Assembly: GCA_018399715.1 (NCBI GenBank)
Contig: JAGYNR010000013.1
Coordinates: 1-35,585 of the forward strand
Reading direction: 5' to 3'
From: Desulfobacterales bacterium
Lineage (GTDB): Bacteria; Desulfobacterota; Desulfobacteria; Desulfobacterales; SKZT01
Length of the DNA: 35,585 bases
Numbering within the stretch: position 1 is the first letter of the stretch; each line of letters begins with the position of its first letter. Positions 1,117 through 34,019 of the stretch are shown one piece after another. The notes under the pieces are model-generated. The model did no database searches. It was given only the letters and a program-made list of their open reading frames with translations, and was not told the DNA's origin. A program made the translations under genes and the position numbers.

Positions 1117-2325
1117 CTAATCTGCCTTGCGACGGAGAAACGTAGGGATATCCAGATCGCCGTTATCAATGACAATTCCTTTGTAATTTTTGTATGGTTT
1201 ATCAGGTTTAGATTTTCCTTCGTTATGCTTTCTTCGGATAAACGTCGGCTCATCATAGTTGACAGCATTTTCCATGTCAGCATGAGTGATATCCCGAACT
1301 TTCCCCCGGGGTTTTTTGTCCCGAAATTTTTCAGGCATGACTGCATCAGCCTCTGATCCGATACCGGTGGCAATAACGGTAACGCGCATTTCATCGCCAA
1401 GGGAATCATCCACAGCCGTTCCCCAAATAATGTCTGCATCTTCTCCCACTTCATTATAAATGCGGTCTGATGCTTGGGTCATTTCATCCATGGTCAATTC
1501 GCTGGTAGATGTAATATTCATCAAAACTCCCCTGGCTCCCGAAATAGAAACATCTTCCAGAAGAGGATGCGATATGGCCCGCTCAGCCGCCTCAATTGCC
1601 CGGTTTTCACCGCTGGCAATTCCAATGCCCATCAACGCCATACCTGCCTTAGACATGGTTTCCTTGACATCGGCAAAATCCAAATTAATCAATCCCGGCA
1701 TCATGATCAAATCGGTAATCCCTTTCACTGAATGTAGCAGAATCTCATCGGCCTTCCTGAACATTTCCAGCATCGTAGCATTTTTTGAGGCGATGCCTCT
1801 TAAACGGTCGTTAGGAATTGTAATGACTGTATCTGAAACTTCTTTGAGGGCTAAAATACCTTCTTCTGCCTGGCGGTATCGTTTTTTCCCCTCAAAAGAA
1901 AAGGGTTTGGTCACCACGGAAACAGTAAGAATTTGCATGCTTTTGCAAATTTCAGCAATTACCGGAGCAGCGCCGGTGCCGGTCCCTCCGCCGAAACCCG
2001 CCGTAATAAATACCATATGGCTTCCATCCAGAGCCTTACGAATTGTCTCCTCGGCCTCCATGGCTGATTCCCGTCCAACACTAGGATTGTTTCCGGCGCC
2101 AAGGCCTTCTGTCAGCTTTTCTCCCAATTGAACTTTAGTTTCGGCTTTGGAGTTTTCCAATGCCTGTGCATCGGTATTCGCCGTAATGAATTTTACGCCT
2201 TTAAGTTCAGAAATAATCATATTGTTGATGGCATTTCCGCCCCCGCCGCCAATACCGATTACTTTGATTTTTGCAGTTTTTTCTTGTGTGGGACTTTCCA
2301 TTTCTACGTATTCGAATGATGGCAT
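1117..2325 (-). CDS. ftsZ: cell division protein FtsZ
   Basis: GGGGGNAINNM, GGGTGTGAAPVIAE tubulin signature; C-terminal peptide DIPTFLRRKAD. Confidence 0.98.
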   Translation of the reverse strand: MPSFEYVEMESPTQEKTAKIKVIGIGGGGGNAINNMIISELKGVKFITANTDAQALENSKAETKVQLGEKLTEGLGAGNNPSVGRESAMEAEETIRKALDGSHMVFITAGFGGGTGTGAAPVIAEICKSMQILTVSVVTKPFSFEGKKRYRQAEEGILALKEVSDTVITIPNDRLRGIASKNATMLEMFRKADEILLHSVKGITDLIMMPGLINLDFADVKETMSKAGMALMGIGIASGENRAIEAAERAISHPLLEDVSISGARGVLMNITSTSELTMDEMTQASDRIYNEVGEDADIIWGTAVDDSLGDEMRVTVIATGIGSEADAVMPEKFRDKKPRGKVRDITHADMENAVNYDEPTFIRRKHNEGKSKPDKPYKNYKGIVIDNGDLDIPTFLRRKAD

Positions 2326-2444
2326 GTTCCCTCCCTTTTTTGATTATTTTTTTATAAATTCGTTATTTTCTTTAAAGTGTATTTTGCCTTCAGGTTTCAG
2401 TGCTTACGTGCTCCCCTTCCTTTTTATTTTTATTGAAATCTGTT

Positions 2445-3671
2445 TTATAAAATTTCCTTAAACCATTTTTTCATCCGGGTCATGAGCCGGTTGAAAATGT
2501 TTTTATCCCGAATTTTGAATTTTTTGGGGATTTGATTTTTTGCTCCATAAAGTACCAGCCCTACACCTGTGGCGTACATAGGGTTATTGACAACATCCAC
2601 AAGACCGCTGATTCCCTGAGGTTTGCCCAACCGTACAGGTAATTCAAACACGGATTCCGCAATATCCGTGATACCTTCCAGAAGGGCTGAACCGCCTGTG
2701 ATGACCACACCTGAAGCCATGAAGTTCGTCATGTCAGCTCTTTGAATTTCTATTTTAATCAGATTGAAGATTTCTTCCATCCGTGGCTCCAGGATTTCTC
2801 CGAGAATCTGCCGTGGTAATTTCCGGGGTTTACGCCCTCCCATCCCCGGTACGTCAATGGTTTCATTATCGTTAATGGATGAGGTAAGACAAGTCCCGAA
2901 TTCCCTTTTGATTTTTTCAGCTTCGGCAAGAGGTGCCCGCAGGCCAATGGCAATATCGTTTGTTAAATTGTCTCCGCCTAACGAGAGCACAAAAGTGTGT
3001 CGAATATTTTTCTGGGAAAAAATAGCCAGATCGCTGGTTCCGCCTCCCAAATCGATAAGCCCGGTACCCAACTCCTTTTCCTCGTTTGTCAGCACGGCGT
3101 CTCCTGAAGCCAAGGATTGCAGAACAATATCGCAGACATCAAGACCTGCCTGGTTGGCACATTTAACGATATTGTGAGCTGAGGTAACCGCGCCGGTTAC
3201 AATATGAATCCTTGCCTCCAGCCGAACACCTGCCATACCAACCGGATTGTGTATTCCGCCCTGGTCATCCAGTATAAATTCCTGAGGTATTACGTGAATG
3301 ACCTCTCTGTCCATGGGAATTGCTACGGCACGGGCAGCATCGATAACCCGGGTAACATCTTGCTCTGTCACCTCCCTGCCCTTGATAGCGATAATACCAT
3401 GGCTGTTAAAACCTGTAATGTGTCCTCCCGCAATACCAGCATATACTGAAGAAATTTCACACCCGGCCATCAGTTCGGCTTCCTCAACAGCTTTTTTTAT
3501 GGACTCCACGGTAGATTCCATATTCACGACCACTCCCTTTCTCAGGCCGATGGAAGGATGATTGCCGATACCAATAATATGAACGCCTGTTCCGGAAACC
3601 TCACCTACAACCGCACAAATTTTTGTTGTACCGATATCAAGTCCGACGATCAGGTTTTCCTGTCCATTCAA
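2445..3671 (-). CDS. ftsA: cell division protein FtsA
   Basis: LIVGLDIGTTKICAVVGE, GLIDLGGGTSDLAIF, VITGGSALLEGI; position between ftsQ and ftsZ. Confidence 0.97.
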   Translation of the reverse strand: MNGQENLIVGLDIGTTKICAVVGEVSGTGVHIIGIGNHPSIGLRKGVVVNMESTVESIKKAVEEAELMAGCEISSVYAGIAGGHITGFNSHGIIAIKGREVTEQDVTRVIDAARAVAIPMDREVIHVIPQEFILDDQGGIHNPVGMAGVRLEARIHIVTGAVTSAHNIVKCANQAGLDVCDIVLQSLASGDAVLTNEEKELGTGLIDLGGGTSDLAIFSQKNIRHTFVLSLGGDNLTNDIAIGLRAPLAEAEKIKREFGTCLTSSINDNETIDVPGMGGRKPRKLPRQILGEILEPRMEEIFNLIKIEIQRADMTNFMASGVVITGGSALLEGITDIAESVFELPVRLGKPQGISGLVDVVNNPMYATGVGLVLYGAKNQIPKKFKIRDKNIFNRLMTRMKKWFKEIL

Positions 3672-3673
3672 CT

Positions 3674-4537
3674 TTATACCTCCTTTTGCTGATCGGCAGT
3701 TTTCTCTGCCGTGGTGGGAAAAACCACAATACGGTTTGGGTTTGCAAGATCAATAGTTGTAAAATCAAAGCTATCATGTTGACGTTGAAAATGAGAAAGT
3801 ACTTTTTTCAAACCGGTTAGTTTGCGGGTATAATCATTAACGCCTAATCTAATACATTTTTCGTTTTCAAAAGCATACAGGGTAAGCCCAATTTGCGGAT
3901 CTACATTGATTCTGCGAATCATATGGGTCGGCAACGGGCAGCCCGGTTGTTCTCCCATCTGAAGCACTTTCATTACAGATGCCATCAAAGTACTTCCCGG
4001 ATCATTGCCAAATTTCAGATCGAAATAGTTCAGGCCGGTTATCAGCGGCAGGTTCCGGCCATCGGAAAGCGTGTATTTTTTAAAAATCTCTCCGTCTGTG
4101 TTCATGACAAATTTTTGACCCATATCTAAAACCGCTAACGATTGATGTTCGGTAACACAGAGAAACAATGTATCCGGCAATTCCCGCCGAACCTCAGCCG
4201 CTTTTATCCACGGATGGCCCAACAGACGCTTTCTGGTGACAGTAAGATTGATGGACAGCAGGTTCATTTCAATTTTCAGTCCGGCGCGTTGGAGAATCTG
4301 ATGATATGATATCCTTTCGATTCCCTGCACAATAATTTTTTTGGTTTTGAAATAACTCCATTGGGTCAAGGCGTCATGAGTGAAAATAAACAAGACACTG
4401 ACTACCGGAATTACCAGCACGGATAAAAAAACCTTACAAAATAACCGCAGCCGCTTGATTCGTCTGGCCTTCTTAACAGCAGGGCTTTCTTTCTTAAAAT
4501 TTTTACGAACTTTTTTTTTCTTCACTATCATCATCAA
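3674..4537 (-). CDS. ftsQ: cell division protein FtsQ (POTRA-containing)
   Basis: Single N-terminal TM, POTRA-like region (IIVQGIERISYHQILQRAGL), synteny. Confidence 0.88.
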   Translation of the reverse strand: MMMIVKKKKVRKNFKKESPAVKKARRIKRLRLFCKVFLSVLVIPVVSVLFIFTHDALTQWSYFKTKKIIVQGIERISYHQILQRAGLKIEMNLLSINLTVTRKRLLGHPWIKAAEVRRELPDTLFLCVTEHQSLAVLDMGQKFVMNTDGEIFKKYTLSDGRNLPLITGLNYFDLKFGNDPGSTLMASVMKVLQMGEQPGCPLPTHMIRRINVDPQIGLTLYAFENEKCIRLGVNDYTRKLTGLKKVLSHFQRQHDSFDFTTIDLANPNRIVVFPTTAEKTADQQKEV

Positions 4538-5910
4538 AGCAAGTCTATTTTTTTAAGAATTATTTCGCCTAACTGATAAATATCTCCCGCCCCAAGGGTA
4601 AGAAAAATATCGCCATTTTTCAAATTTGCCGCCAGGTAAGTGGATGCACTGTCAAAATTCTCATAAAAAATTGCTTTCCGGTGGCCATGAGCCACAATCG
4701 AGTTCAGCAGATTATGGCTATCTATACCGGGAATTGGCTGTTCACCCGCCGGATAAATGGGTAACACCACCAGAACATCCGACTGATAAAAAGACCGGGT
4801 GAATTCATCGAAGAGCCCTTTGGTCCGGCTGTAACGATGTGGCTGGAAAGCGACCACCAGTCGGTGGTTCGGCCAGCTTTCTTTTGCCGCCTGCAAGGTC
4901 ATCTTTATTTCTGTAGGATGGTGTCCATAGTCATCCACCACTGTTATCCCTTTTTTTTGACCTTTGATTTCCATTCGACGCTGGACCCCCTCATGAGTCT
5001 CCAGGGCTTCTTTGATTGTCTGAAAAGAAATTCCCACTTCCATGCCTACCGCTACACTTGCCAGAGAATTGGAAACATTGTGAATACCCGGAAGATTAAC
5101 CAGGATTTTTCCTAGGCGCTGACCCATATGATATACTGTAAATCGGCTTTGCAACCCCGAAAATTCGATATGTGTTGCCTGGAAATCGGCCTGGGTGCTC
5201 ATGCCATAGGTAGTATACCGTTTGGTAATTTTGGGGATTAATTCCTGAACAGACTCATTGTCAAGACAAAGCACCGCCAGCCCATAAAAAGGAATACGAT
5301 GAATAAAGTTGAAAAATACATTTTGGATATCGGCCAGACCTTCATAAAAATCTAAATGCTCTTTATCGATATTGGTTACGACCGCAATGGTGGGAGACAT
5401 TTTCAAAAAAGAACCGTCACTTTCGTCAGCCTCTGCAACGATAAATTCTCCCTTTCCCAACAGCGCATTGGTATTGATGCTTTTCAATTTCCCGCCGATA
5501 ACGACAGTGGGGTCCAATCCTCCTTTTGCCAGAACCGACGAAATGATGGATGTGGTGGTTGTCTTGCCGTGAGCACCGGCAACAGCCACGCTGTATTTGA
5601 GGCGCATCAGTTCGGCCAGCATTTCTGCACGGGGAATGACCGGTATGGATGATTGTCTGGCAGCTTTCACTTCCTGGTTGTCCGGACCGATCGCAGATGA
5701 CATAACAACAACATCGGCGCCGCTGATATTTTCTTTTCGATGCCCGATTTTGATGGTTCCGCCCAGTTTTTTCAGACGATCGGTAATATCGGAAGTTTTG
5801 ATATCCGAGCCGGAAACCGAATATCCCAAATTTAACAGAAGTTCCGCAATTCCGCTCATACCGATTCCGCCGATACCCACAAAATGGATATGGTATTGTT
5901 TTAAATACAT
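4534..5910 (-). CDS. murC: UDP-N-acetylmuramate--L-alanine ligase
   Basis: HFVGIGGIGMSGIAELL, GAHGKTTTTSII; start set at MYLKQYHIHFVG (the ORF track extends to 5949). Confidence 0.96.
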   Translation of the reverse strand: MYLKQYHIHFVGIGGIGMSGIAELLLNLGYSVSGSDIKTSDITDRLKKLGGTIKIGHRKENISGADVVVMSSAIGPDNQEVKAARQSSIPVIPRAEMLAELMRLKYSVAVAGAHGKTTTTSIISSVLAKGGLDPTVVIGGKLKSINTNALLGKGEFIVAEADESDGSFLKMSPTIAVVTNIDKEHLDFYEGLADIQNVFFNFIHRIPFYGLAVLCLDNESVQELIPKITKRYTTYGMSTQADFQATHIEFSGLQSRFTVYHMGQRLGKILVNLPGIHNVSNSLASVAVGMEVGISFQTIKEALETHEGVQRRMEIKGQKKGITVVDDYGHHPTEIKMTLQAAKESWPNHRLVVAFQPHRYSRTKGLFDEFTRSFYQSDVLVVLPIYPAGEQPIPGIDSHNLLNSIVAHGHRKAIFYENFDSASTYLAANLKNGDIFLTLGAGDIYQLGEIILKKIDLL

Positions 5911-5914
5911 CGTC

Positions 5915-6997
5915 TCACTCGTTAATGATTCGGTAACAGTTCTCGACAATCGTTGCTGCAGCTTCTGGTTTTCCCAATTGCCTGGCAGTTTTTCCCATTT
6001 GAGTCAATTTTTGTCGGTTTAAGGCCAGTTGAATAATTTTATCGGCCAGAATTTTACCGGAAAGATTTTTTTGAAGAATCATTTCAGCAGCTCCCCTGTT
6101 ACAAATGGCACGGGCATTGAGCTTTTGATGGTTGTCGGCGGCATGGGGAAAAGGAATAAAAATGGCCGGTTTTCCCATGGCTGTCAATTCCGCAATCGTT
6201 GTTGCACCTGAGCGGCATACCACCAGATCCGCCAGTCGATAAATTCTGGCCATGTCATTAAAAAAAGCGTTTACCTCGTAATGAATAGTGCTTTGTTCAT
6301 AACTCTTTCTGACAATGGTTTCATCTGTTGGACCCGTTTGATGAATAATCCGTAAATCGCGAATCTCATCGAGATATTTTAATGCCTCCATTATAGCCGT
6401 GTTGATTCGGTGCGCGCCTTGACTTCCTCCCAGAACCAGGACGGTGAAAAAATTATCTGGTTGAGGCAAAAAGGAGTTCACAAGTTCTTTACGAACCGGG
6501 TTCCCTGTGTACATCATTTTGTTTAAATGAATTTTTTGGGTATCGGGAAATGAAACAAAAACCCGTTTGGCAAATATGGACAGCATCCGGTTGGTTATAC
6601 CGGGAAAAATATTTTGTTCACAAAGAAATATGGGCTGTCTGAAAATCCATGCAGCTAACACCATCGGGGCAGCGGAATAGCTTCCCATTCCGATGATCAT
6701 ATGAGGTTGAAATTTTTTCAATATCGACATTGACTGAATAAAACCGGCCATCAATTTCCAGATAGCCTGGATTTGCCGGAAAATGCCTCGTCCCTTGAGA
6801 CCTTCTGCTGAAATAATTTTCAGTTTAAAACCATAAGTCGGTAAAACTAAACGTTCGACAGGACGTCCGGTACTGATAAAAATAACCTGATTTTTTTCAT
6901 CTCTGTCAATGAATTCCTGTGCGATAGCAATTCCGGGAAACAGGTGACCACCTGTTCCTCCGCCGGTAATGATGATTTTTAAAGATTTATCGGGCAT
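5915..6997 (-). CDS. murG: undecaprenyldiphospho-muramoylpentapeptide beta-N-acetylglucosaminyltransferase
   Basis: IIITGGGTGGHLFPGIAIA, VLGGSQGAHRIN, CRSGATTIAELTAMGKPAIFIPFPHAADNHQ. Confidence 0.97.
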   Translation of the reverse strand: MPDKSLKIIITGGGTGGHLFPGIAIAQEFIDRDEKNQVIFISTGRPVERLVLPTYGFKLKIISAEGLKGRGIFRQIQAIWKLMAGFIQSMSILKKFQPHMIIGMGSYSAAPMVLAAWIFRQPIFLCEQNIFPGITNRMLSIFAKRVFVSFPDTQKIHLNKMMYTGNPVRKELVNSFLPQPDNFFTVLVLGGSQGAHRINTAIMEALKYLDEIRDLRIIHQTGPTDETIVRKSYEQSTIHYEVNAFFNDMARIYRLADLVVCRSGATTIAELTAMGKPAIFIPFPHAADNHQKLNARAICNRGAAEMILQKNLSGKILADKIIQLALNRQKLTQMGKTARQLGKPEAAATIVENCYRIINE

Positions 6998-8168
6998 TTT
7001 TCATCTTTCCTCCGATATTCATTAAAATACCCATGGCAGCCATATTGATCAGCAAAGAGGTGCCGCCATAGCTTAAAAAAGGAAGGGTTAAGCCTTTCGT
7101 TGGCAAAAGTCCTAAAGCGACCCCCATATTGACCGTCACCTGAACTGCTAACGCTGAAACAATTCCGGTAGCTAATAAAGAACCAAAGATGTTTTCAGCA
7201 TTTTTGGCGATAAAAATTCCCCGACACATAATCCATACGTACATTACCAAAATCAATAACACTCCCATAAACCCGGTTTCTTCTCCGATGACGGAGAAAA
7301 TGAAATCGGTGTGCGGTTCGGGCAGATAAAAAAGTTTCTGGTAACTTTGCCCGATTCCTGTTCCAAAAAGACCTCCGGTACCAAAAGCCATCAGGGAGTG
7401 GATAATCTGGTAACCACCATCGGTCGGATATTGCCAGGGATCCCAGAAAATCATAATACGCTCCAGGCGGTAGGGAGCTTTGATCATTATGAACGTTAAA
7501 AGGGGGATAATGAACAGAAGCGGCGTACCTAAATGAACAAGTTTCACACCAGCAACAAACATCATAATCCATACGATAAGACAGAAAATAAAAATAGTGC
7601 CAAAATCCGGCTGAAATAAAAGCAATACGGACATTATTGCCAATAGTATGAGATGAGGAATAAATCCGATTGAAAATTTGCTGATGTTAGGTTGTTTTTT
7701 GCTAAGAGAATAGGCCATGAAAATAATCAATGTTATTCTGGCTGCCTCCGAGGGCTGAAATGTCCACCGTCCTATTTTCAGCCATCTGCTGGCTCCTCCG
7801 GCTGAATAGCCGATGCCTGGAATGAAAACCAGAGAAAGCAAAATTAAAGTGATGATTAATAACGGGTAGGTCATTTGGCTATATACCCTGAAAGGAATAC
7901 GACGGCAAAAAACCAACATTATGATACCGCCAATAGCAAAAATTGCCTGTTTCCGAAGAAAAAAAGAATCAGCACCGAATTTTTTTAAAGCAATAACAGA
8001 GCTGGCACTATAAACCATCGCGATACCGATGCCTACCAAAAAAAGTACCGGAAACAAGATATGAAGATCATATCCGGTTGGTCGGCCCTTTTTTACAGTT
8101 TTAGTCTTGACAGGTTGGTCAGGTGCCTGTTTTTTATTTGTTTTCATGCTTATTTGCACTGTTATCAT
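6987..8168 (-). CDS. ftsW: lipid II flippase/glycosyltransferase FtsW (SEDS family)
   Basis: SEDS motifs (GIGYSAGGASRWLKIG..FQPSEAARI, PEPHTDFIFSVIGEETGFMG); start may be 8147. Confidence 0.95.
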   Translation of the reverse strand: MITVQISMKTNKKQAPDQPVKTKTVKKGRPTGYDLHILFPVLFLVGIGIAMVYSASSVIALKKFGADSFFLRKQAIFAIGGIIMLVFCRRIPFRVYSQMTYPLLIITLILLSLVFIPGIGYSAGGASRWLKIGRWTFQPSEAARITLIIFMAYSLSKKQPNISKFSIGFIPHLILLAIMSVLLLFQPDFGTIFIFCLIVWIMMFVAGVKLVHLGTPLLFIIPLLTFIMIKAPYRLERIMIFWDPWQYPTDGGYQIIHSLMAFGTGGLFGTGIGQSYQKLFYLPEPHTDFIFSVIGEETGFMGVLLILVMYVWIMCRGIFIAKNAENIFGSLLATGIVSALAVQVTVNMGVALGLLPTKGLTLPFLSYGGTSLLINMAAMGILMNIGGKMKNAR

Positions 8169-8191
8169 CTAATTGATTTATTTCAATCTAC

Positions 8192-9577
8192 CTATTGAAG
8201 TCCGGAAGCAATGCGGTGAACTGCTCTTTTAAAATGTTCGCCGCGATCCTTATAACTTTTATACTTGTCGAAGCTGGCACATGCAGGTGCCAGTAACACG
8301 GTTTCATTTGGTCCGGCGGCTTTATAAGCTTTTAATACGGCGTCATCCATATCGGTTGCCCATTGACAGGGAATTAATCCTTCTAACGTATCATAAATCG
8401 TTTGAGCGGCTTCTCCTAAAAGCACCAGCAGTTTTACTTTTTTATACTGATGTTTCAATGGCGAAAAATCATTTCCTTTGTCGCGCCCCCCCAGTATAAG
8501 AATCAGTGGGGTGTCAAAAGTTTCAATCGCTTTGATGGCAGCATCTACATTGGTGGCCTTGGAATCGTTTACAAAATCGATGCCCTTTAATGTGGCAACT
8601 TTTTCCAGGCGATGCGGAAGTCCTTTAAAGTTTTGAAGAGCGTTTTGAATACCTTCTTTGGAGGCGCCTGCGCTCAATGCTGAAAGGCAGGCGGCGGCAG
8701 CGTTTTGAAGATTATGGAAGCCAGGAAGTGAAAATTTCTTGAGATCGATCCGAAAGGGCACTTCATTTTTTAAATAAATAGAGACGCTGGGTGATTGAAC
8801 CTCCGGGTAGTCGATAATCGCATATCCATGATCATTTTGGGAGTAACCTGTTTCGGAAGATACCCATAACGGTTTACTTCGAACTGAACGGCTCATGTCC
8901 CTGATGACCGGATCAATGATATTTAGTACGGCTACGTCTTCCGGGAGTTGATTTTCAAATAGCCGTCTCTTCGAGTTTACATACGTTTTGAAATCTGGAT
9001 ATCTGTCCATGTGATCTTTCGAGATATTTAGCAGAACAGCTATCTGTGGCCTGAACTGATCAATGGTGTCCAATTGAAAACTGCTCAATTCTACTACCAG
9101 CCAGTCCGCTTTTTTGTGGTCATCGGCATAAGTAATCAGGGGATTTCCGATATTGCCGCCCACAAAAACAGAAAAACCCGACTCTTTCAGCATTTCTCCC
9201 AAAAGGGTGGTCGTAGTGGTTTTTCCGTTGGTGCCGGAGACGGCAATCATCGGTTCAAGTATAAACCTTGAAGCCAGCTCGATTTCACCGATAACCGGAA
9301 TTCCCATTTTTCTTGCCTGGTTCAAAACCGGCAGTTCATGAGGAACTCCCGGACTCACGACAATCAGGTCGGCATCTTGAAATGGTTGATGGGAGTGACT
9401 GCCAAATTCCGTACGAATTCCCAGTTTTTTAAGCCATTGCGGCACATCCCCCAAGGTACTTTCGGGCGCGCTGTCGATTGCCGTAATATGAGCATTTCTT
9501 TTCGCTAGAAATTTGGATACCGCAATGCCGGTTACTCCCAGTCCTACCACGACTATCTTTTTTTCTGAAATTTCCAT
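8192..9577 (-). CDS. murD: UDP-N-acetylmuramoylalanine--D-glutamate ligase
   Basis: KKIVVVGLGVTGIAVSKFL, VSGTNGKTTTTTLLGEML; start at MEISEKK. Confidence 0.96.
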   Translation of the reverse strand: MEISEKKIVVVGLGVTGIAVSKFLAKRNAHITAIDSAPESTLGDVPQWLKKLGIRTEFGSHSHQPFQDADLIVVSPGVPHELPVLNQARKMGIPVIGEIELASRFILEPMIAVSGTNGKTTTTTLLGEMLKESGFSVFVGGNIGNPLITYADDHKKADWLVVELSSFQLDTIDQFRPQIAVLLNISKDHMDRYPDFKTYVNSKRRLFENQLPEDVAVLNIIDPVIRDMSRSVRSKPLWVSSETGYSQNDHGYAIIDYPEVQSPSVSIYLKNEVPFRIDLKKFSLPGFHNLQNAAAACLSALSAGASKEGIQNALQNFKGLPHRLEKVATLKGIDFVNDSKATNVDAAIKAIETFDTPLILILGGRDKGNDFSPLKHQYKKVKLLVLLGEAAQTIYDTLEGLIPCQWATDMDDAVLKAYKAAGPNETVLLAPACASFDKYKSYKDRGEHFKRAVHRIASGLQ

Positions 9578-9585
9578 TTTTAATT

Positions 9586-10665
9586 TTATCTGAGTTTTAA
9601 AGCGCTTAACGCAATTAAGGATAGCGCCACCGCTATAATCCAAAATCGAACGATTACCTTAGGTTCAGCCCACCCCTTTAATTCGAAATGGTGATGAAGC
9701 GGGGCCATTTTAAATATTCGTCTGCCATGTGTCATTTTGAAAAAAAACACCTGAAAAATGACAGACAACACCTCCAAAACAAAGAGTCCCCCCACAATCA
9801 CCAGCATGATTTCCTGCTTAGTGATCACTGCTACCGTTCCCAGGGCGGCTCCCAGGGAAAGAGAGCCTACATCTCCCATAAATACTTGGGCAGGGTATGC
9901 GTTAAACCATAAAAATCCCATGCCTGCTCCTCCCAGTATGCCGCAGAAAATTGTAATTTCACCGGCATTCGGGACAAATTTAAGCTGCAAGTATTCGGCA
10001 AATTTGATATGCCCCGTCACATAAGCAAACACCATGTAAGTACCTGCCGCAATAATCACCGGGCCGATCGCCAGACCGTCCAGACCATCTGTCAAATTGA
10101 CGGCATTTGACGCCCCCACGATAACAAAAGCAGCAAAAACAATATACCAGGGGCCCAGATCCGGCAAAACATTTTTAAAAAACGGAACCGTAACTTGTGA
10201 TGAAAAATTCGGAGTGAAGTAAACCAACACACCGGTTATGAATGCGACGATAACTTGAAGCATTAATTTGCCCCAAACGCCCAGCCCTTTGTTTTGTTTC
10301 TTGACCTGTTTCAGGTAGTCATCGATAAAGCCGATAACGGCAAAACCGATCGTACAAAACAAGACGATCCATACATAATGGTTGGATAGATTAATCCAAA
10401 GCAATGTGGAAATTACAACGGATGAAATGATTAAAACCCCTCCCATGGTGGGGGTGCCTGCCTTTTTTTGATGCTCGGAGGGGCCGTCTTCCTGAATATA
10501 CTGGCCTACCTGAAGCTCTTTGAGTTTTCGAATGATCCATGGCCCCATCAGAAAACAAATAAGGAAAGCTGTCAAACTTCCATAAATAGCCCTAAACGTA
10601 ATATAACGAAATACATTGAAGGCCGAAAACGTTGTATGTAAAGGATACAGCAAATGGTAAATCAT
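9586..10665 (-). CDS. mraY: phospho-N-acetylmuramoyl-pentapeptide-transferase
   Basis: [57 protein letters not shown]. Confidence 0.98.
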
Positions 10666-12083
10666 GATGTTTTTATCCCGGATTTGAGTCCATCGACGAT
10701 TTTTTCCATTCCCATTGACCTTGAACCTTTCACTAAAATCCAGTCTCCCGGTAAAAGCCATTTGATCATATCTTCAAGGATTTCTGTTTTACTTCCCACA
10801 TAAATATCCCGACGCTCCATTCCGTTTGCCATGGCCCCTTCCGCAATTTTCAAAGAAAAATTGCCAACCGCGTATAACCGATTGATACCGGCTTTTGCAG
10901 CAAGTTCTCCAATATTTTTGTGCAGGGAGTCTGAAAACTGACCCAACTCCAACATGTCTCCTGCGACAAAAATTGCCCGGTGTGTTTTTTTTAAATTTCT
11001 AAGTGTGATCAGGGCTGCGGCCATGGAACCCGGGTTGGCGTTATAGGTATCATCGATCACATGAATTTTATTTGGGGTCTCAAAGATATTCATGCGTCCC
11101 GGTGCCGGATAAAAATCATTTTCTAAAGCCGACTTGATCGCCTCGGGAGAAACACCGGCAAGATATCCTGATGAAGCTGCTGCAAGAGCGTTTGCCACCA
11201 TAAAAGAACCAGGAATTTTTAACGTAATACAGATTTCTTTTTTGGGCAGCGAAAGGCGGAAGCTTGTCCTCAAACCGTTTTCTTCAATTATGGTTGCACG
11301 GATATCAGCATCTTCGGAAACCCCATACAACAGTACGTTTCCAGGGGCTTTATCCTTTAAGGAAATCACCCTGGGATCATCCGCGTTTAAGACTGCGGTA
11401 CCATCAGCCGCCATGTGATCCAGGAGCTCTGCTTTAGCCGCAGCTACACCGTCCAGGGAGCTAAACCCTTCCAGATGTGCCGGTCCGATATTGGTTATCA
11501 TACCGATATCGGGACGGCATATTTTGGTAAGCCTCGCTATTTCGCCGGGATGGTTGGCACCCATTTCCAGAACCGCCCACTGATGCTCGCGTTTTAATCT
11601 CAACAGGGTTAAAGAAAGACCGATTTCATTGTTGAAATTCCCATAGCTCCACAATGTGGGATATCGTTTACGAATCACCGCGGTTGTCATTTTTCGGGTA
11701 GTCGTCTTTCCGTTGGAGCCGGTAACAGCGATGACTGATATTTTCGACCGTTTCCGGTTAAAAGCGGCCATGTCTCCCAAAGCCCTTGTGGTGTCCGTAA
11801 CCGCAACACATACTATCCCCCTCGTTTTCCATTTAGCTAAAGGAAATTCAGAAATTTTTTGCTTTGAGATCACAACTCCCATAACACCTTTATCGATGAC
11901 TTCATCCAGAAAACAATGTCCGTCATGGTTTTCTCCTTTGATCGCCACAAAGAGGTTCTTTTGGGATACGGACCTGGAATCGATGGATACGCCGTAAAAA
12001 GTTTTTTCTGGTTTTTCGGTCAGAAGTACCCCTTGGGTAGCTTCGGCAACATCGACTGCTGTCCAGGGGAGGTAATCGGTCAT
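10662..12083 (-). CDS. murF: UDP-N-acetylmuramoyl-tripeptide--D-alanyl-D-alanine ligase
   Basis: [40 protein letters not shown]. Confidence 0.96.
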
Positions 12084-12119
12084 TAAGGTTCTCCTGTTTT
12101 TTTTACCGCATCCTTACGT

Positions 12120-13700
12120 TTAAAGCGTCAGCGCTATTTTGGCTTCCAGGCGGTCATCGAATGGTACGGTTTTATTGCCTATTACCTGATACGGTTCATG
12201 TCCTTTGCCGGCTATCAGAATTGTGTCCCCCGGAAGTGAGGTGCGCACAGACGTACAAATGGCATTTTTCCGGTCAGGAATAATTGCGTATCCCTTTTCT
12301 GTAAATCCCTCATAAAGTTCTGTGACCGAATATTCTTTTATATCGGCTTTTCTGATTCCCCCGAGAATATCCTCGATGATTTCAAGTGGGGATTCGGTTC
12401 TAGGGTTATCTGATGTAACAATCGTAAGATCACTAAATTGAGTTGAAACTTCACCCATCATGGATCTTTTTCCGCAGTCCCTGTCTCCGCCACATCCAAA
12501 AACACATATCAGGCGCCTGGAAGATAAAGAACGAAGCACCTTCAAAACGTTTCGAAGCGCATCGGATGTATGGGCATAATCAACATAGACAAAACGTCCC
12601 AGATCGTTGGGAACCCGCTCAAGACGTCCCGGAACAGATTCTAACGCTTCGATACCTTTTTTGATTTCCGATGGTTTCAGATTCAGTGCAACAGCGGCGC
12701 CGGTTGCTGCGAGGATATTATCGATATTAAAAGTGCCGACCAAAGAAGACCTGAATCCGAAAGTACCGAAAGGTGTCTTAATTTTTGCCTTGATTCCTGT
12801 TAAATTCATAGAGAATTTTTCAGGATAAATGGTATTTAAGGATGAATTTCCCACAGAGATTGCATTTAGCGGAAATTTCATGAACAGCGCTTTTCCTTTT
12901 ACATCATTGCAATTAAAAACTGCTTTGGCCGCTTTACATTTTGGACCTTTGACAAGGTGCTCCATGAAAAGCCGTTTCTTGCAGGCCCAGTAAGCTTCCA
13001 TTGTCAGGTGATAATCCAGATGGTCCCGGGTAAGGTTTGTGAAGACGGCAACATCAAAACAGCAGTTCTCAATACGAAATAGTTCAATAGCGTGGGATGA
13101 AACCTCCATAACCACATGAGAAATGCCATGTCCGGCCATCTCCGATAGAATTCTTTGCAAATCAAGAGATTCGGGGGTAGTTACCTGTGAAGCGAAGACT
13201 TGGTCAGCATAACGGTAGTTAATGGTACCGATGACCCCTACGTTGAAGCCGGCCTGTGAAAGAATACGCTCCAATAAATATGCCGTTGTTGTTTTGCCGT
13301 TGGTACCGGTAATTCCAATTATTGTCATTTTTTGGGATGGATCACCGAAAAAATGGCTGCTCATAGACGCCAATGCCTTGCGGGTATTTTCAACCATCAC
13401 CACAATTGCATTTTTTTCCAATGGCTTTTGGGAGATAATGACACTGGCACCTTTTTCAATGGCTTGGTCTATAAAATAATGACCATCGACTTTAAATCCC
13501 TTGATCGCTACAAAAAGACCTCCGGGTGATACTGTCTGGGCCCTGTAATGGATGGATGTAACGTCGATGTCAGGAACAATCTTATCGGGTGACATTTCGG
13601 GTGGAAGAAAATCAGACGGAATCGGATGTGCATCTGCTATATGAGGGGGTACAGAGATCTGAATTACTGGTATATTTTTAATCAGTGCAGATAATTTCAT
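12120..13700 (-). CDS. murE: UDP-N-acetylmuramoyl-L-alanyl-D-glutamate--diamino acid ligase
   Basis: GITGTNGKTTTAYLLE, EVSSHAIELFRIENCCFDVAVFTNLTRDHLDYH, SDNPRTESP. Confidence 0.96.
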   Translation of the reverse strand: MKLSALIKNIPVIQISVPPHIADAHPIPSDFLPPEMSPDKIVPDIDVTSIHYRAQTVSPGGLFVAIKGFKVDGHYFIDQAIEKGASVIISQKPLEKNAIVVMVENTRKALASMSSHFFGDPSQKMTIIGITGTNGKTTTAYLLERILSQAGFNVGVIGTINYRYADQVFASQVTTPESLDLQRILSEMAGHGISHVVMEVSSHAIELFRIENCCFDVAVFTNLTRDHLDYHLTMEAYWACKKRLFMEHLVKGPKCKAAKAVFNCNDVKGKALFMKFPLNAISVGNSSLNTIYPEKFSMNLTGIKAKIKTPFGTFGFRSSLVGTFNIDNILAATGAAVALNLKPSEIKKGIEALESVPGRLERVPNDLGRFVYVDYAHTSDALRNVLKVLRSLSSRRLICVFGCGGDRDCGKRSMMGEVSTQFSDLTIVTSDNPRTESPLEIIEDILGGIRKADIKEYSVTELYEGFTEKGYAIIPDRKNAICTSVRTSLPGDTILIAGKGHEPYQVIGNKTVPFDDRLEAKIALTL

Positions 13701-27450: not shown

Positions 27451-27483
27451 CTTACGTAGTCAGAAATTAAAAAGGATGGAATG

Positions 27484-28806
27484 ATGTCAGAAGACGCAAT
27501 TAAAATTGAAGGTAAGAAAAAAAAGAGTTTGTTTATCGACAAGGTCCGCGAGATTCTACCGGATGGCGGAAACCTGAACATGTGCATTACTTGCGGTGCC
27601 TGTGCGTCAGGGTGTCCGGCGACCGGTCTGGAAAATATGGATCCTCGAAAATTTCTCAGAATGGCGGCTCTGGGGTTGGATGAAGAGATCACGAGTACGC
27701 CGTGGGTTTGGATGTGCACTGGTTGCCAGCGATGTATTTACGTCTGTCCCATGAAAATCAATATCCCGGAGCTGGTATATTATGCTCGGCAATCCTGGCC
27801 CAGAGAAGAAAGACCGAAAGGTATTCTGGGGTCTTGTGACATGGCGTTAAGAAATGATAGTTGCAGTGCAATGGGGGCATCTCCGGATGATTTTCAGTTT
27901 GTGGTCGAAGATGTCCTGGAGGAATACAGGGAGGCCCAGCCGGAATTTAAAGACATGGAAGCTCCCATTGATAAGGCCGGTGCTGAATTTTTTCTGAATC
28001 AAAATTCAAGGGAGCCGGTTACAGAACCCGATGAGATGGTTCCGTTATGGAAGATTCTTCACACGGTGGGGGTCGACTGGACCTATGGAAGCAAGGGATG
28101 GGGCGGCGAAAATTACTGTATGTTTTTAGCTGACGACGAAGCCTGGGAGCATGTGACCCGGACAGCACTCAATAAAGCCGATGAACTGGGATGTAAAATT
28201 TTTCTCAATACGGAGTGAGGGCACGTGACCTTCTCAGTCCTGGCAGGACTGAAAAAATTCAATATCGACCATAAATGTGAGGTCAAAAGCATCTATGAAT
28301 ATTATGCAAAATGGATCCGGGAAGGAAAACTTAAAGTTAATTCCGACTGGAACAAGGATTTGAAATTAAAGTTTACCGTTCAGGACCCTTGTCAGATCAT
28401 TCGTAAAAGCTACGGCGATCCGATTGCAGAAGATCTTCGCTTTGTGGTCAAATCAATCGTTGGAGAAGAAAATTTTATCGATATGACGCCCAACCGATCG
28501 AATAATTTTTGTTGCGGCGGTGGCGGCGGATTTCTTCAATCCGGATATGTGGATGCCCGTCGGGCCTATGGCAAAATAAAAGCAGATCAAATCCTTGCAA
28601 CCGGAGCCGATTACTGCATTGCGGCTTGCCACAACTGCCATGCCCAAATACATGATTTGGCTGAAGTAAATGACCATGCATGGCAAACTGTCCATTTGTG
28701 GACCATGATTTGCCTGTCGCTTGGAATTTTGGGCCCGAATGAACGGGAATATCTTGGAGATGATTTAAAAGAGGTAAATGTGTTTCATCCCGAAACGGCG
28801 CTATAA
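27484..28806 (+). CDS. HdrC-HdrB-like fused heterodisulfide reductase subunit with in-frame TGA (candidate Sec245), 440 aa
   Basis: N-terminal HdrC-type CxxCxxC..CP / CTGCQRCIYVCP; C-terminal CCG domain matches C-X39-CCG-X36-CXXC; TGA at 28216-28218 is the only interruption and both halves share one frame. Confidence 0.85.
28234..28252 (+). promoter_or_regulatory. candidate bacterial SECIS hairpin in the HdrC-HdrB-like gene
   Basis: TCAGTCCT-GGC-AGGACTGA, perfect 8-bp stem; loop starts 24 nt after the TGA. Confidence 0.65.
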
Positions 28807-28905: not shown

Positions 28906-31900
28906 ATGAAGACAGTTATGAATAGTCACAATGAATCTCAATCGAACAATAAGGTCCTTGTCATCGGCGGTGGCCTCGGTGGGATACGAACGGCTCTGGA
29001 TCTGGCTGAAGCAGGTCGCAATGTGGTCCTGGTGGAAAAGGATTTTTCAATCGGAGGGCTGATGACTCAGCTCGACCGGACTTTTCCGACCAATAATTGT
29101 GATCTGTGTACAATTTCTCCTTATTTGTCAGAAAGCGTTCGCCAGCTTCCTATCGAGTTTTTATCCATGACCCGGGTTACCGAAGTTGAAGGAGAAGCCG
29201 GTGATTTCACTGTTACACTCAATACGGCACCCAGGTATATCGATCTGGATAAATGTACGGCCTGTGGCGATTGTTATAACAAATTTCCGGAATGTGTTCG
29301 GTTTACCCCAGGACTGGATCATCGCGCACCTACCTGTATGCGGTATCCCCATGCGACACCCCAGGCATTTTCTGTTGACATGGCAAAATGTAATGATATT
29401 CAGCAGGTAGTTGATATATGTCCGGCCGGAGCCATCGTTCCCGATGATAAGGGAACAACACAACAAATTTCTTGCGGTGCCATTGTACTGGCAACCGGTG
29501 CCGGGATTTTTGATCCCAGCGGCCTGGACAATTTCGGGTATAAGAATCAACCCGATGTGGTCACCAGTCTGGAATATGAACGTATTCTGTCGGCCTCCGG
29601 TCCGACGCATGGATATCTTTTAAGACCTTCTGATAATGAAAAACCCAAGAAAATTGCATGGATACAATGCATTGGCTCCAGAGGGATGCAAAAAGGAGCC
29701 AGCTCCTACTGTTCAAGTGCCTGTTGTATGTTTGCGCTCAAGGAAGCCATCGTTACCAAAGAACGATTCGGAGAAGATATTGAAACTACGATTTTCTTCA
29801 TGGATATGCGGACATTTGGTAAAGATTATGAGTGCTACCTGGAAAGGGCGAAAAATGAATTCGGGATTCGATTAGTCCGTTGTCGTCCTCACAGTGTCAT
29901 TCAAAGGCCGGGTTCTAATGTGCTTTCCATCTCATTTGCACCTTTTGACAGGAGTGAGTTGGTAACCGAAGAGTTTGATATAGTAGTGCTTTCAACCGGA
30001 TTTAAAGTAGCGGAGGATGTGAAAAAGCTGGCCCAGGATATGGGTATCGAGCTCAATGAGCATAATTTCGCAAAAACCAGTAATTTTCAGCCGGTTTCGA
30101 CATCCCGCCCCGGTATATATGTCTGCGGCATGTTTGAAAGCCCGAAAGATATTCCGGAAACGTTGATACAAGGAAGCGCGGCGGCATGTATGGCATCGTC
30201 AAATATGCCCGCTCCTGAAAAAGCCCCTGCATCAGAAGAAGATTTTCCACCTGAAAAAGATGTTACAGGCCAGCCGCCTCGAATCGGTGTCTTTATCTGT
30301 GACTGTGGAAATAATATCGGCGGTGTTATTGATGTAGAAGAGTTGGCTGAATATGCAGGGAATTTGTCTGATGTGGCGGTATCAAAAAGCGTTGGACAGG
30401 GCTGTACTCAGGAATCCATGAAAGAAATTCAGGATCTCATTGTTTCTGAAGACCTCAACCGTGTTGTTATTGGCGGTACTTCACCGAGAACCGAGGAACT
30501 AAAGTTTCAGGACCTGCTTCGCAGAGCCGGACTTAATCCGTATTTACTTGAGATTGCTAACATCAGGGATCAGGTCGCATGGGTTCACGGCGACAATCCT
30601 GAAAATGCCCTTAAAAAGGCTAAAAGCTTAATTCAAATGGCGGTATGTGCCGTAAAGAAAAACCGGCCTTTGATAGAGCAAACGCTTCCCATGAATAAAG
30701 ATGTTCTGGTCGTAGGCGGTGGGGTCTCCGGTATGAGTTCTGCTTTGGCCTTGGCCGATCAGGGATTCAAAGTCTTTTTGGTTGAAAAGGAAGATAAGCT
30801 GGGTGGCTTTGCAAAGAATCTGCGAAAGACCCTGGAAGGTGAAGATGTGGCAGGGGCACTCGGGGAGATGATTGAAAAAACCCAAACCCATGAAAACATT
30901 GAGGTGATTACTGGTGCCAACCTGGTAGATCATACCGGAAAAACCGGTATGTTCAGAACTGGTATACAAATCGGGCCGGAAAAATCCTATCGCCAGATTG
31001 ATCATGGTGCCACTATTCTGGCAACCGGTACTCAACCGAATCGACCCGCCGAGTATCTTTTGGATCAACACGAGGCGGTCATGACCCAGGCAGATGCGGG
31101 GATATTTATCGAAGATTCTCCCGAAAAGGTAAAGGCCCTGGAAAATATCGTTATGATTCAGTGTGTTGGGTCTCGTTGTCCGGACAATCCCAACTGCTCT
31201 CGGATTTGCTGCCAGGCAGCCGTTAAAAATGCCTTGCATATTCTGGATATTAACCCGGATGCCCAAATTTTTGTGCTGTACCGGGATATGCGCACCTACG
31301 GATTCCAGGAAGATTATTATCGTAAGGCCCGGGAGAAAGGCGTGATATTTATTCGTTATGAAGTGGATGCCCCTCCCAATGTTGAAGCCAGTGGAGACAA
31401 AGTGAATGTCACGTTTGTTGATCCGATTTTAAATCGACCCCTGATGGTCACGGCTGACAAATTGTTGCTGAGCACCGGATTTAAAGTCGATCAAAAGGCT
31501 ACAGAGCGTCTGGCACGAATTTTTAAACTTCCGAGAACCCATGATGGCTATTTTCTGGAGGAGCATGTTAAACTTCGGCCCATCGATCTTCCGGTTCCCG
31601 GATGTTTTGTCGCCGGAACAGCGCATAGCCCGAGACTGATTCGGGAAAGTATTGCCCAGGCACAGGCCGCAGCATCTAGAGTTCAAACCATATTGGCCAA
31701 AGACGTGATCCACTTAAGTCCGGTAGTGGCTCAGGTGGATGGAGATAAATGCGCAGCATGTCTGGTTTGTGTCCGGGCCTGTCCATTTAATGTACCGTAT
31801 ATTAATGCTGATGGTTATTCAGAAATTGATCCTGCCAAGTGTCATGGATGCGGTATTTGCGCTGCTGAATGCCCGGCAAAGGCCATTCAGCTCATGAAGT

Positions 31901-31959
31901 TTGAGGATGACCAGATTATGGCGAAATTAGAAGGACTTTTTGAAAGGAAGGTTGCCTGA
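28906..31959 (+). CDS. hdrA: large HdrA-like FAD/Fe-S protein with two thioredoxin-reductase-like halves
   Basis: VLVIGGGLGGIRTALDLAEAG and DVLVVGGGVSGMSSALALADQG nucleotide-binding motifs; central HdrA-NTD-like FICDCGNNIGGVIDVEEL; C-terminal 2x[4Fe-4S] ferredoxin. Confidence 0.92.
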   Translation: MKTVMNSHNESQSNNKVLVIGGGLGGIRTALDLAEAGRNVVLVEKDFSIGGLMTQLDRTFPTNNCDLCTISPYLSESVRQLPIEFLSMTRVTEVEGEAGDFTVTLNTAPRYIDLDKCTACGDCYNKFPECVRFTPGLDHRAPTCMRYPHATPQAFSVDMAKCNDIQQVVDICPAGAIVPDDKGTTQQISCGAIVLATGAGIFDPSGLDNFGYKNQPDVVTSLEYERILSASGPTHGYLLRPSDNEKPKKIAWIQCIGSRGMQKGASSYCSSACCMFALKEAIVTKERFGEDIETTIFFMDMRTFGKDYECYLERAKNEFGIRLVRCRPHSVIQRPGSNVLSISFAPFDRSELVTEEFDIVVLSTGFKVAEDVKKLAQDMGIELNEHNFAKTSNFQPVSTSRPGIYVCGMFESPKDIPETLIQGSAAACMASSNMPAPEKAPASEEDFPPEKDVTGQPPRIGVFICDCGNNIGGVIDVEELAEYAGNLSDVAVSKSVGQGCTQESMKEIQDLIVSEDLNRVVIGGTSPRTEELKFQDLLRRAGLNPYLLEIANIRDQVAWVHGDNPENALKKAKSLIQMAVCAVKKNRPLIEQTLPMNKDVLVVGGGVSGMSSALALADQGFKVFLVEKEDKLGGFAKNLRKTLEGEDVAGALGEMIEKTQTHENIEVITGANLVDHTGKTGMFRTGIQIGPEKSYRQIDHGATILATGTQPNRPAEYLLDQHEAVMTQADAGIFIEDSPEKVKALENIVMIQCVGSRCPDNPNCSRICCQAAVKNALHILDINPDAQIFVLYRDMRTYGFQEDYYRKAREKGVIFIRYEVDAPPNVEASGDKVNVTFVDPILNRPLMVTADKLLLSTGFKVDQKATERLARIFKLPRTHDGYFLEEHVKLRPIDLPVPGCFVAGTAHSPRLIRESIAQAQAAASRVQTILAKDVIHLSPVVAQVDGDKCAACLVCVRACPFNVPYINADGYSEIDPAKCHGCGICAAECPAKAIQLMKFEDDQIMAKLEGLFERKVA

Positions 31960-32399
31960 TGGAAAATTTTGAACCGATAATTGTCGCCTTCTGTTGCCAA
32001 TATTGTCCCTATACGGCAGCGGATACTGCAGGAACCCAGCGGCTTTGTTACCCGGCCAATTTAAAAATTATTCGGGTTCCCTGTGCAGGAAAGGTTGACG
32101 CAATGCATATTCTAAAAGCCTTCGAAAAGGGAGCGGATGGCGTTGTTGTGGCCGCATGCCTGGAAGGAGACTGTCATTTTGAAACCGGCAACATAAAGGC
32201 CGCACGACGTGTGTCTTATATCAAAAAGCTCATGGAAGAAATCGGAGTTGAAGGAGAGCGTCTTGAAATGGTTATGTTGTCCGCTGGAATGGGGGATCGT
32301 TTTGCCGAAATGGCAACGGAAGTGACGGAAAAAATCCGTAAACTGGGTCCTAGTCCTATCAATCTCAACACTTCTTCCCAAAAACAGGAAGCGTGTTGA
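31959..32399 (+). CDS. mvhD: MvhD-like methyl-viologen-reducing hydrogenase delta subunit
   Basis: IVAFCCQYCPYTAADTAGTQR; VVAACLEGDCHFETGNIKA; start overlaps hdrA stop (TGATG). Confidence 0.9.
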   Translation: MENFEPIIVAFCCQYCPYTAADTAGTQRLCYPANLKIIRVPCAGKVDAMHILKAFEKGADGVVVAACLEGDCHFETGNIKAARRVSYIKKLMEEIGVEGERLEMVMLSAGMGDRFAEMATEVTEKIRKLGPSPINLNTSSQKQEAC

Positions 32400-32427: not shown

Positions 32428-33096
32428 ATGATCACTGCTGAAAGAAAACCTTTAGAAGAGTTAATTGAATATGTCCGTCCCTATGATCGCATCCTTTTGG
32501 TAGGCTGCAACGAGTGTGTGACGGTCTGTGCGGCCGGAGGGCGAAAGGAAGTCGGACTTTTGGCTTCAGCGCTGAAGATGGCCTTTGCAAAAGAAGGTAA
32601 AACTATTGATATCAAGGAATTAACGCTTGAAAGACAGTGTGATCCCGAATATATCGAAGAGTTGGTGCCTCATATCGAAGATGTGGATGCAGTTATGTCC
32701 ATGGCCTGCGGATGCGGCGTCCAGGAAATTGCCAAACGCTTCAAAAATATACCGGTGTTTCCCGCTGTGAACACAAAGTTTATGGGAGCTTCGGAACAAC
32801 AGGGAATTTGGGCCGAACGATGTCAGGGATGCGGAGATTGTCTTCTGGGACTTACCGGGGGCATATGTCCCATCGCCCGATGCTCCAAGCACCTGATGAA
32901 CGGGCCTTGCGGCGGATCTACGAACGGTAAATGTGAAATCAGTCCGGATGTCGATTGTGTCTGGCAATTGATATGGGACAGGCTCAAAGCTTTGGGTATG
33001 GAAGACCGATATGAAGAAATAATACCCGCCAAAGATTGGCGAACAGCCGGGGGCGGTGGTCCACGAAAGATAATAAGGGAGGATTTGGCAGAATGA
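32428..33096 (+). CDS. metV: MetV-like methylenetetrahydrofolate reductase C-terminal-type zinc/Fe-S protein
   Basis: RILLVGCNECVTVCAAGGRKEVG, ERCQGCGDCLLGLTGGICPIARCSKHLMNGPCGGSTNGKCE. Confidence 0.88.
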   Translation: MITAERKPLEELIEYVRPYDRILLVGCNECVTVCAAGGRKEVGLLASALKMAFAKEGKTIDIKELTLERQCDPEYIEELVPHIEDVDAVMSMACGCGVQEIAKRFKNIPVFPAVNTKFMGASEQQGIWAERCQGCGDCLLGLTGGICPIARCSKHLMNGPCGGSTNGKCEISPDVDCVWQLIWDRLKALGMEDRYEEIIPAKDWRTAGGGGPRKIIREDLAE

Positions 33097-34019
33097 AAAC
33101 CGAAAGCGTATTGGAAAAAGTCTTAGCATCAGGTAATCTTGCGGTTACTTCGGAATGTGGCCCTCCCAGAGGAACAAATGCGGAGATCATTAAAGCAAAG
33201 GGTGAACTGCTCAAGGGGAAAGTTGATGCTGTCAATGTTACGGATAATCAGACAGCTATGGTCCGCATGTCAAGTTTTGCAGCGAATGTTTTTTTAAAAC
33301 AGGCGGGATTAAATCCAATTTTACAAATGGTCACCCGGGATCGGAATCGACTTGCCATGCAGGCGGATATTCTTGGCGCATATGCCCACGGAATTAATAC
33401 AATGCTTTGTTTGTCAGGCGATCATCCCAGTTTTGGAGATCATCCCATGGCGGCCAACGTTCATGATATTGATTCTGTTCAGTTTATTCAGATGGTCAAG
33501 AAAATGCGCGATGAAGGTAAATTCCAGGGAGGTGCAGATATCGATAATCCTCCTAAGATGTTTATCGGTGCCGCGGCCAACCCTTTTGCTGACCCGTTTG
33601 AGCTTCGGGTCGCCCGCCTGGCTAAAAAAGTGGCTGCCGGTGTGGATTTTATTCAGACCCAATGTATTTATAATCTGGATAAATTTGAAAAATGGATGGA
33701 AGGCGTTCGGGCTCGGGGGCTTCATGAAAAATGTTATATATTGGCAGGTGTAACCCCAATGAAATCGGCGGGTATGGCACGTTACATGAAAAATAAGGTC
33801 CCGGGAATGGATGTTCCTGATGAAGTTGTCAAACGAATGGCCGGTGTTCCCAAGGAAAAAATGGCTGATGAGGGCATTGATATCTGTGTTGAAAGTATTC
33901 AGCGATTAAAAGAAGTCGAGGGTGTCGCTGGTTTCCATATTATGGCCATTGAATGGGAAAAAAAGGTGCCGGAGATTGTTGAAAGAGCGGGACTTTTGCC
34001 GAGGCCCACGGTCTCATAA
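33093..34019 (+). CDS. metF: methylenetetrahydrofolate reductase
   Basis: VTSECGPPRGTNAE, AVNVTDNQ, GAAANPFADPFELRVARLAKKVAAGVDFIQTQ; ATGA overlap with metV. Confidence 0.92.
   Translation: MKTESVLEKVLASGNLAVTSECGPPRGTNAEIIKAKGELLKGKVDAVNVTDNQTAMVRMSSFAANVFLKQAGLNPILQMVTRDRNRLAMQADILGAYAHGINTMLCLSGDHPSFGDHPMAANVHDIDSVQFIQMVKKMRDEGKFQGGADIDNPPKMFIGAAANPFADPFELRVARLAKKVAAGVDFIQTQCIYNLDKFEKWMEGVRARGLHEKCYILAGVTPMKSAGMARYMKNKVPGMDVPDEVVKRMAGVPKEKMADEGIDICVESIQRLKEVEGVAGFHIMAIEWEKKVPEIVERAGLLPRPTVS

Follow-up and report, generated by a model that had tools for sequence, protein, structure and literature searches.

The bSECIS/SelB mechanism of selenocysteine (Sec) insertion in bacteria is established. 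According to the published bSECIS model, 16–37 nt separate the UGA codon from the apical loop, the loop comprises 3–9 nt with a G in its first two positions, the upper stem has 4–16 bp and the minimum free energy (MFE) is at or below −7.5 kcal/mol, and the sequence of the element usually varies from family to family (PMC13188914). A selenoprotein family carrying the motif UGH was described by Zhang et al. 2006 as ‘Fe-S oxidoreductase (GlpC)’ (PTHR43551; PMC1794560; PMC13188914), with the operon glpC-hdrA-frhD-frhG-frhA (PMC1794560). A 2026 review places this UGH family among the high-confidence predicted selenoproteins and calls its biological function largely uncharacterised (PMC13188914). 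In addition, a selenocysteine-containing HdrD4 was annotated in 2009 in Desulfobacterium autotrophicum HRM2 (PMC2702500). In the accessible parts of these earlier accounts, the UGH selenoprotein is placed only beside hydrogenase (frhG-frhA) genes or other Hdr loci.

The locus described here lies in a window of 35,585 nt, the whole stretch of DNA that was analysed, from a Desulfobacterales bacterium (Table 1). Its selenoprotein gene resembles the GlpC/UGH family in encoding an Fe-S protein with a Sec-Gly-His motif in the Deltaproteobacteria, beside hdrA and frhD/mvhD (PMC1794560, PMC13188914), and the encoded protein also shows the UGA aligned to Cys and the 4Fe-4S dicluster and CCG domains of that family. 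In contrast to the published GlpC operon, metV-metF take the place of the hydrogenase genes, and neither the HdrA-like nor the MvhD gene of the window contains an in-frame TGA. The likeness to HdrD4, compared by description, is that of a soluble Sec-containing HdrC-HdrB fusion from a marine sulfate reducer of the Desulfobacterales whose genome also encodes non-Sec paralogs, but the accessible part of the HdrD4 account is without SECIS covariation or MetVF linkage (PMC2702500). We conclude, with a probability of about 97%, that the hairpin downstream of the UGA is a bacterial SECIS element for selenocysteine insertion at codon 246. This is no new mechanism, rather a textbook SECIS in a further member of a known selenoprotein family, one already described in 2006–2009; the frequent HdrA-MvhD-MetV-MetF linkage goes slightly beyond the published accounts, and no paper linking the UGH/HdrD selenoprotein to MetVF was found among the main texts of the open-access literature.

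Table 1. Positions of the selenoprotein gene, its recoding signals and its downstream neighbours in the window
Feature	Position	Strand	Basis
HdrCB-fusion (HdrD/‘GlpC’, Fe-S oxidoreductase-like) selenoprotein gene, 441 codons	27481..28806	+	TGA=U read-through ORF
UGA codon for selenocysteine, Sec246, motif NTE-U-GH	28216..28218	+	Cys/Sec-only column in family
5' arm of SECIS stem, TCAGTCCT	28234..28241	+	sequence, fold, covariation
Apical loop GGC	28242..28244	+	first base G in 99/99 distinct close UGA orthologs
3' arm of SECIS stem, AGGACTGA	28245..28252	+	sequence, fold, covariation
HdrA-like flavoprotein, likely partner	28906..31959	+	NCBIfam HdrA2 831.7 bits (< 1100 cut-off), Pfam Pyr_redox_2/Fer4
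MvhD/VhuD (FlpD) electron-transfer subunit	31959..32399	+	Pfam FlpD 167.6 bits; NCBIfam VhuD 165.1, below cut-off
MetV-like (DUF5981) protein	32428..33096	+	Pfam DUF5981, methylene-THF reductase C-terminal, 133 bits
MetF, methylenetetrahydrofolate reductase	33036..34019	+	Pfam MTHFR 139 bits

The selenoprotein gene contains a single in-frame TGA, ends with the stop codon TAA and forms a continuous frame of 441 amino acids when the TGA is read as U, with Pfam domains Fer4 at residues 32–93 (two 4Fe-4S motifs) and CCG at residues 299–390. Close orthologs are 75–86% identical across the full length, through the TGA, and the best named matches come from Desulfobacterales and other deltaproteobacterial genomes. 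Cultured organisms among the relatives compared include Desulfatitalea alkaliphila and Desulfoprunum benzoelyticum. The N-terminus matches HdrC and the C-terminus HdrB in sequence, and the predicted fold (mean pLDDT 89.5) resembles EtfD, HdrB and HdrC. Thus, the product is an HdrC-HdrB fusion of the HdrD type, and the label ‘HdrB-like’ given to it in the original prediction is correct for the HdrB part but falls short of the full identity, an HdrC-HdrB fusion of HdrD/GlpC type. Automatic annotation would split the gene into 27481–28218 and 28225–28806, and the electron-transfer subunit would thereby be lost.

In an alignment of 42 sequences, the invariant Cys columns comprise eight in the two ferredoxin sites, residue 246 (C/U) in the first CCG half and C304, C344, C345, C383 and C386 in the second CCG half. 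Position 246 lies within the motif (N)TE-[U/C]-GH, where NTE-U-GH of the window protein is aligned to NTECGH in the Cys homologs. The protein thus combines two [4Fe-4S] sites of the HdrC kind with a CCG domain resembling that of HdrB, the clusters themselves being predicted, and Sec246 is, as judged from the alignment, the counterpart of the invariant Cys in the degenerate first CCG half. The pattern of invariant Cys columns suggests that Sec246 probably lies at or near the non-cubane cluster of the second domain and does not ligate a separate cluster, and we suggest that its selenolate is probably involved in electron or disulfide chemistry.

Among family members scoring at least 220 bits, the codon at position 246 is TGA in 155, TGC in 20 and TGT in 3, and nothing else, these counts including some loci counted twice. 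The genome from which the window derives encodes tRNA-Sec (78.7 bits, above the curated cut-off), SelB (383.6 bits) and SelA (604.9 bits), and no SelD above the cut-off was found in this 77%-complete assembly. SelD, its gene also carrying an in-frame TGA, is present in both tested genomes of the same family as well as in 16 of 19 further genomes, three of which belong to the genus of two relatives in which SelD was likewise not found. A SelD-less lineage comprising this genome and the two relatives was therefore dropped as an explanation, and since relatives of the same family have SelD, its absence here is most simply a matter of assembly incompleteness. Pyrrolysine or broken genes, considered for in-frame TAG/TAA flagged in G535, G369, G558 and G449, were also dropped; on translating the loci L160, L161, L162 and L181, TAG/TAA are found only at gene ends or outside the gene.

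The segment TCAGTCCT-GGC-AGGACTGA at 28234–28252 forms a perfect 8-bp stem closed by a loop of 3 nt. The stem starts 15 nt past the TGA, so that 23 nt separate this codon from the apical loop. The minimum-energy fold of 28210–28265 includes this stem, with an MFE of −16.3 kcal/mol over the 56 nt and −12.7 kcal/mol over the 39 nt after the UGA. Both the sequence and the fold agree exactly with the perfect 8-bp stem and G-first loop of the original prediction. The loop had been placed 24 nt after the UGA, which is correct in that the spacing lies within the SECIS range and the loop begins at the 24th nucleotide, but the intervening distance is one nucleotide shorter. The description of the stem as GC-rich does not hold, with 4 of the 8 pairs being G-C and a GC content of 58% over the 19 nt, as compared with 44% for the window. 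The hairpin agrees with every published bSECIS constraint, namely in its loop beginning with GG, its 8 bp, its spacing and its MFE below −7.5 kcal/mol. The spacing is common to 116 of 123 distinct UGA homologs, and the loops of the 99 distinct close UGA orthologs are limited to GGC, GGA, GTT, GTC, GTA and GGT. The overall design resembles the SECIS of the E. coli formate dehydrogenase type, with an early-loop G, an 8-bp stem and a spacing of 16–37 nt, located inside the coding region. By this mechanism, SelB together with Sec-tRNA(Sec) and GTP would bind the apical loop (5'-G-G/U) downstream of the UGA, such that selenocysteine would be delivered at codon 246 of the HdrCB-fusion mRNA and translation would not end there.

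As a single-sequence observation, the hairpin is only moderately improbable by chance. A Watson-Crick stem of at least 8 pairs is found in the SECIS range at 67 of 10,045 codon positions (0.7%) of the window genes, and synonymous re-coding of the same peptide with the codon usage of the window yields such a stem in ~1.1% of 100,000 draws. A fold as good as that of the real 39 nt was obtained in 26 of 2,000 re-codings, and the 56-nt fold has a z of −1.75, with 13 of 200 shuffles folding equally well. The expectation that the repeat would be unlikely by chance therefore stands, at ~1% under re-coding, but one sequence alone is not enough to settle the question, and the strong evidence for the hairpin is comparative. 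The frequencies above leave some room for a chance inverted repeat next to a UGA that is a pseudogene stop or a sequencing error, yet we consider this extremely improbable, as well over 100 orthologs, spread over many genera, share this UGA and keep the frame downstream of it, and the stem covaries. Natural variants of the stem among the sequences include the change CCTGGCAGG to CCGGGCCGG. Across 62 distinct UGA orthologs, standard pairs occupy 95.8% of the pair cells, and five of the eight pairs are changed on both sides (UA/GC, AU/GC/UA, GC/AU and UA/CG, and GC/UA/AU at the loop-closing pair). Doubly changed cells number 67; shuffles give 21.9, and none of 500 reaches the observed number. 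Sliding the partner by 1–3 bases reduces pairing to 17–46% and doubly changed cells to 0–22. The covariation score is 0.400, compared with at most 0.115 with the partner slid, and RNAalifold finds the same eight pairs unprompted in the UGA orthologs. Covariation and phylogenetic spread thus already refute a chance repeat or pseudogene, and the stem is kept with compensatory changes where the original prediction had looked for them. The outermost pair, 28234/28252, is formed in only about three quarters of the UGA orthologs. In the distant homologs L176–L180 and L182 (33–40% identity), the TGA within the UGH motif is kept, while several have a weaker stem or one at another position, which may reflect a different SECIS geometry.

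Conservation of the structure for a reason other than selenocysteine, be it coding constraint, mRNA stability, translational pausing or a terminator, has in its favour that the stem partly encodes a conserved peptide (FSVLAGL / FAVRAGL), and we regard it as highly improbable. Some of the compensated changes alter the protein, with Leu replaced by Arg at the loop-closing pair, and coding constraint is no explanation for these. A terminator was rejected, the hairpin being absent from the terminator scan and followed by no T-run, and an Rfam search with the hairpin gave no significant family, the one non-significant match being to a miRNA on the opposite strand. More decisively, the stem is not conserved in the Cys-codon orthologs, where 47.8% of positions are paired as compared with 49.2% in shuffles; these are 17 distinct sequences, 51–73% identical to the window protein, and no consensus structure was found when looked for among them. 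Several of the Cys orthologs share a genome with a UGA copy, and tRNA-Sec and SelD are still present in the checked genomes of the Cys copies, indicating that loss of the stem accompanies loss of the codon and not of the machinery. On a protein tree for which the recoded site and the stem residues were masked, at least six changes between UGA and Cys codons fall on well-supported branches, and the stem is gained or lost along with the codon: stem state tracks codon state in 5–6 of 6 independent pairs and never opposes it (sign test, p about 0.03, a value limited by how many pairs there are). The Sec and Cys copies, several of them in the same genomes, thereby offer a clean evolutionary demonstration that the SECIS stem persists only while UGA is used, and the claim that the hairpin supports recoding is borne out by covariation in the UGA orthologs and loss in the Cys orthologs. 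A frame open across the UGA would also be expected if the codon were read as tryptophan or another residue, or leakily read through without selenium. However, TGA terminates 11 of the 28 window genes and is therefore an ordinary stop elsewhere, the homologs carry only the Cys codons TGC or TGT at this position and never TGG, the genome encodes Sec machinery and the distance from the UGA to the hairpin is that of a SECIS, such that tryptophan or a changed code is rejected and the probability of this reading as a whole is vanishingly small. A SECIS element for Sec246 thus remains the preferred reading.

One Cys-codon ortholog nested among UGA relatives (L157) retains, where the SECIS would lie (3655–3696 of that locus), a stem that has partly decayed; this would be a fossil SECIS, as expected of a recent Sec-to-Cys switch.

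The MetFV-HdrABC-MvhD complex of acetogens is encoded by genes for HdrA, HdrB/C, MvhD, MetV and MetF, and the same gene content is co-localised in the window. In contrast to the acetogen complex, HdrB and HdrC are fused here and the fusion carries the Sec. Of the 85 UGA loci that are at least 7 kb long, about 35 have MetV and MetF genes nearby, 57 have HdrA and 45 have MvhD; MetV/MetF are seen at none of 15 Cys loci, the flanks of which extend only ~3 kb, so the difference from the UGA loci is not reliable. To judge from gene order, the Sec-containing HdrD would probably form a soluble complex with HdrA, MvhD, MetV and MetF, which would pass electrons between methylene-/methyl-THF and the HdrA flavin/ferredoxin in the Wood-Ljungdahl pathway. 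We tentatively propose, at somewhat less than even odds, that a MetVF-HdrA-MvhD electron-transfer complex in Desulfobacterota regularly includes a Sec-containing HdrD-type subunit, such that in these sulfate reducers selenium would support the methylene-THF reductase step of the (reverse) Wood-Ljungdahl pathway. The link to MetVF suggests a testable selenium-dependent step in C1 oxidation/fixation by sulfate reducers.

The MetV and MetF frames as listed overlap by 61 bases, and the true start of MetF is probably downstream of 33036. In L041, L043, L050, L051, L094, L105, L107, L113 and L114, HdrD and HdrA are separated by ~1 kb, and in some relatives (L042, L013, L060) this interval gives a weak match to MetF. 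Elsewhere in the window, the minus strand of 1117–13700 carries an ordinary cell-wall/division cluster (FtsZ, FtsA, FtsQ, Mur ligases, MurG-like).
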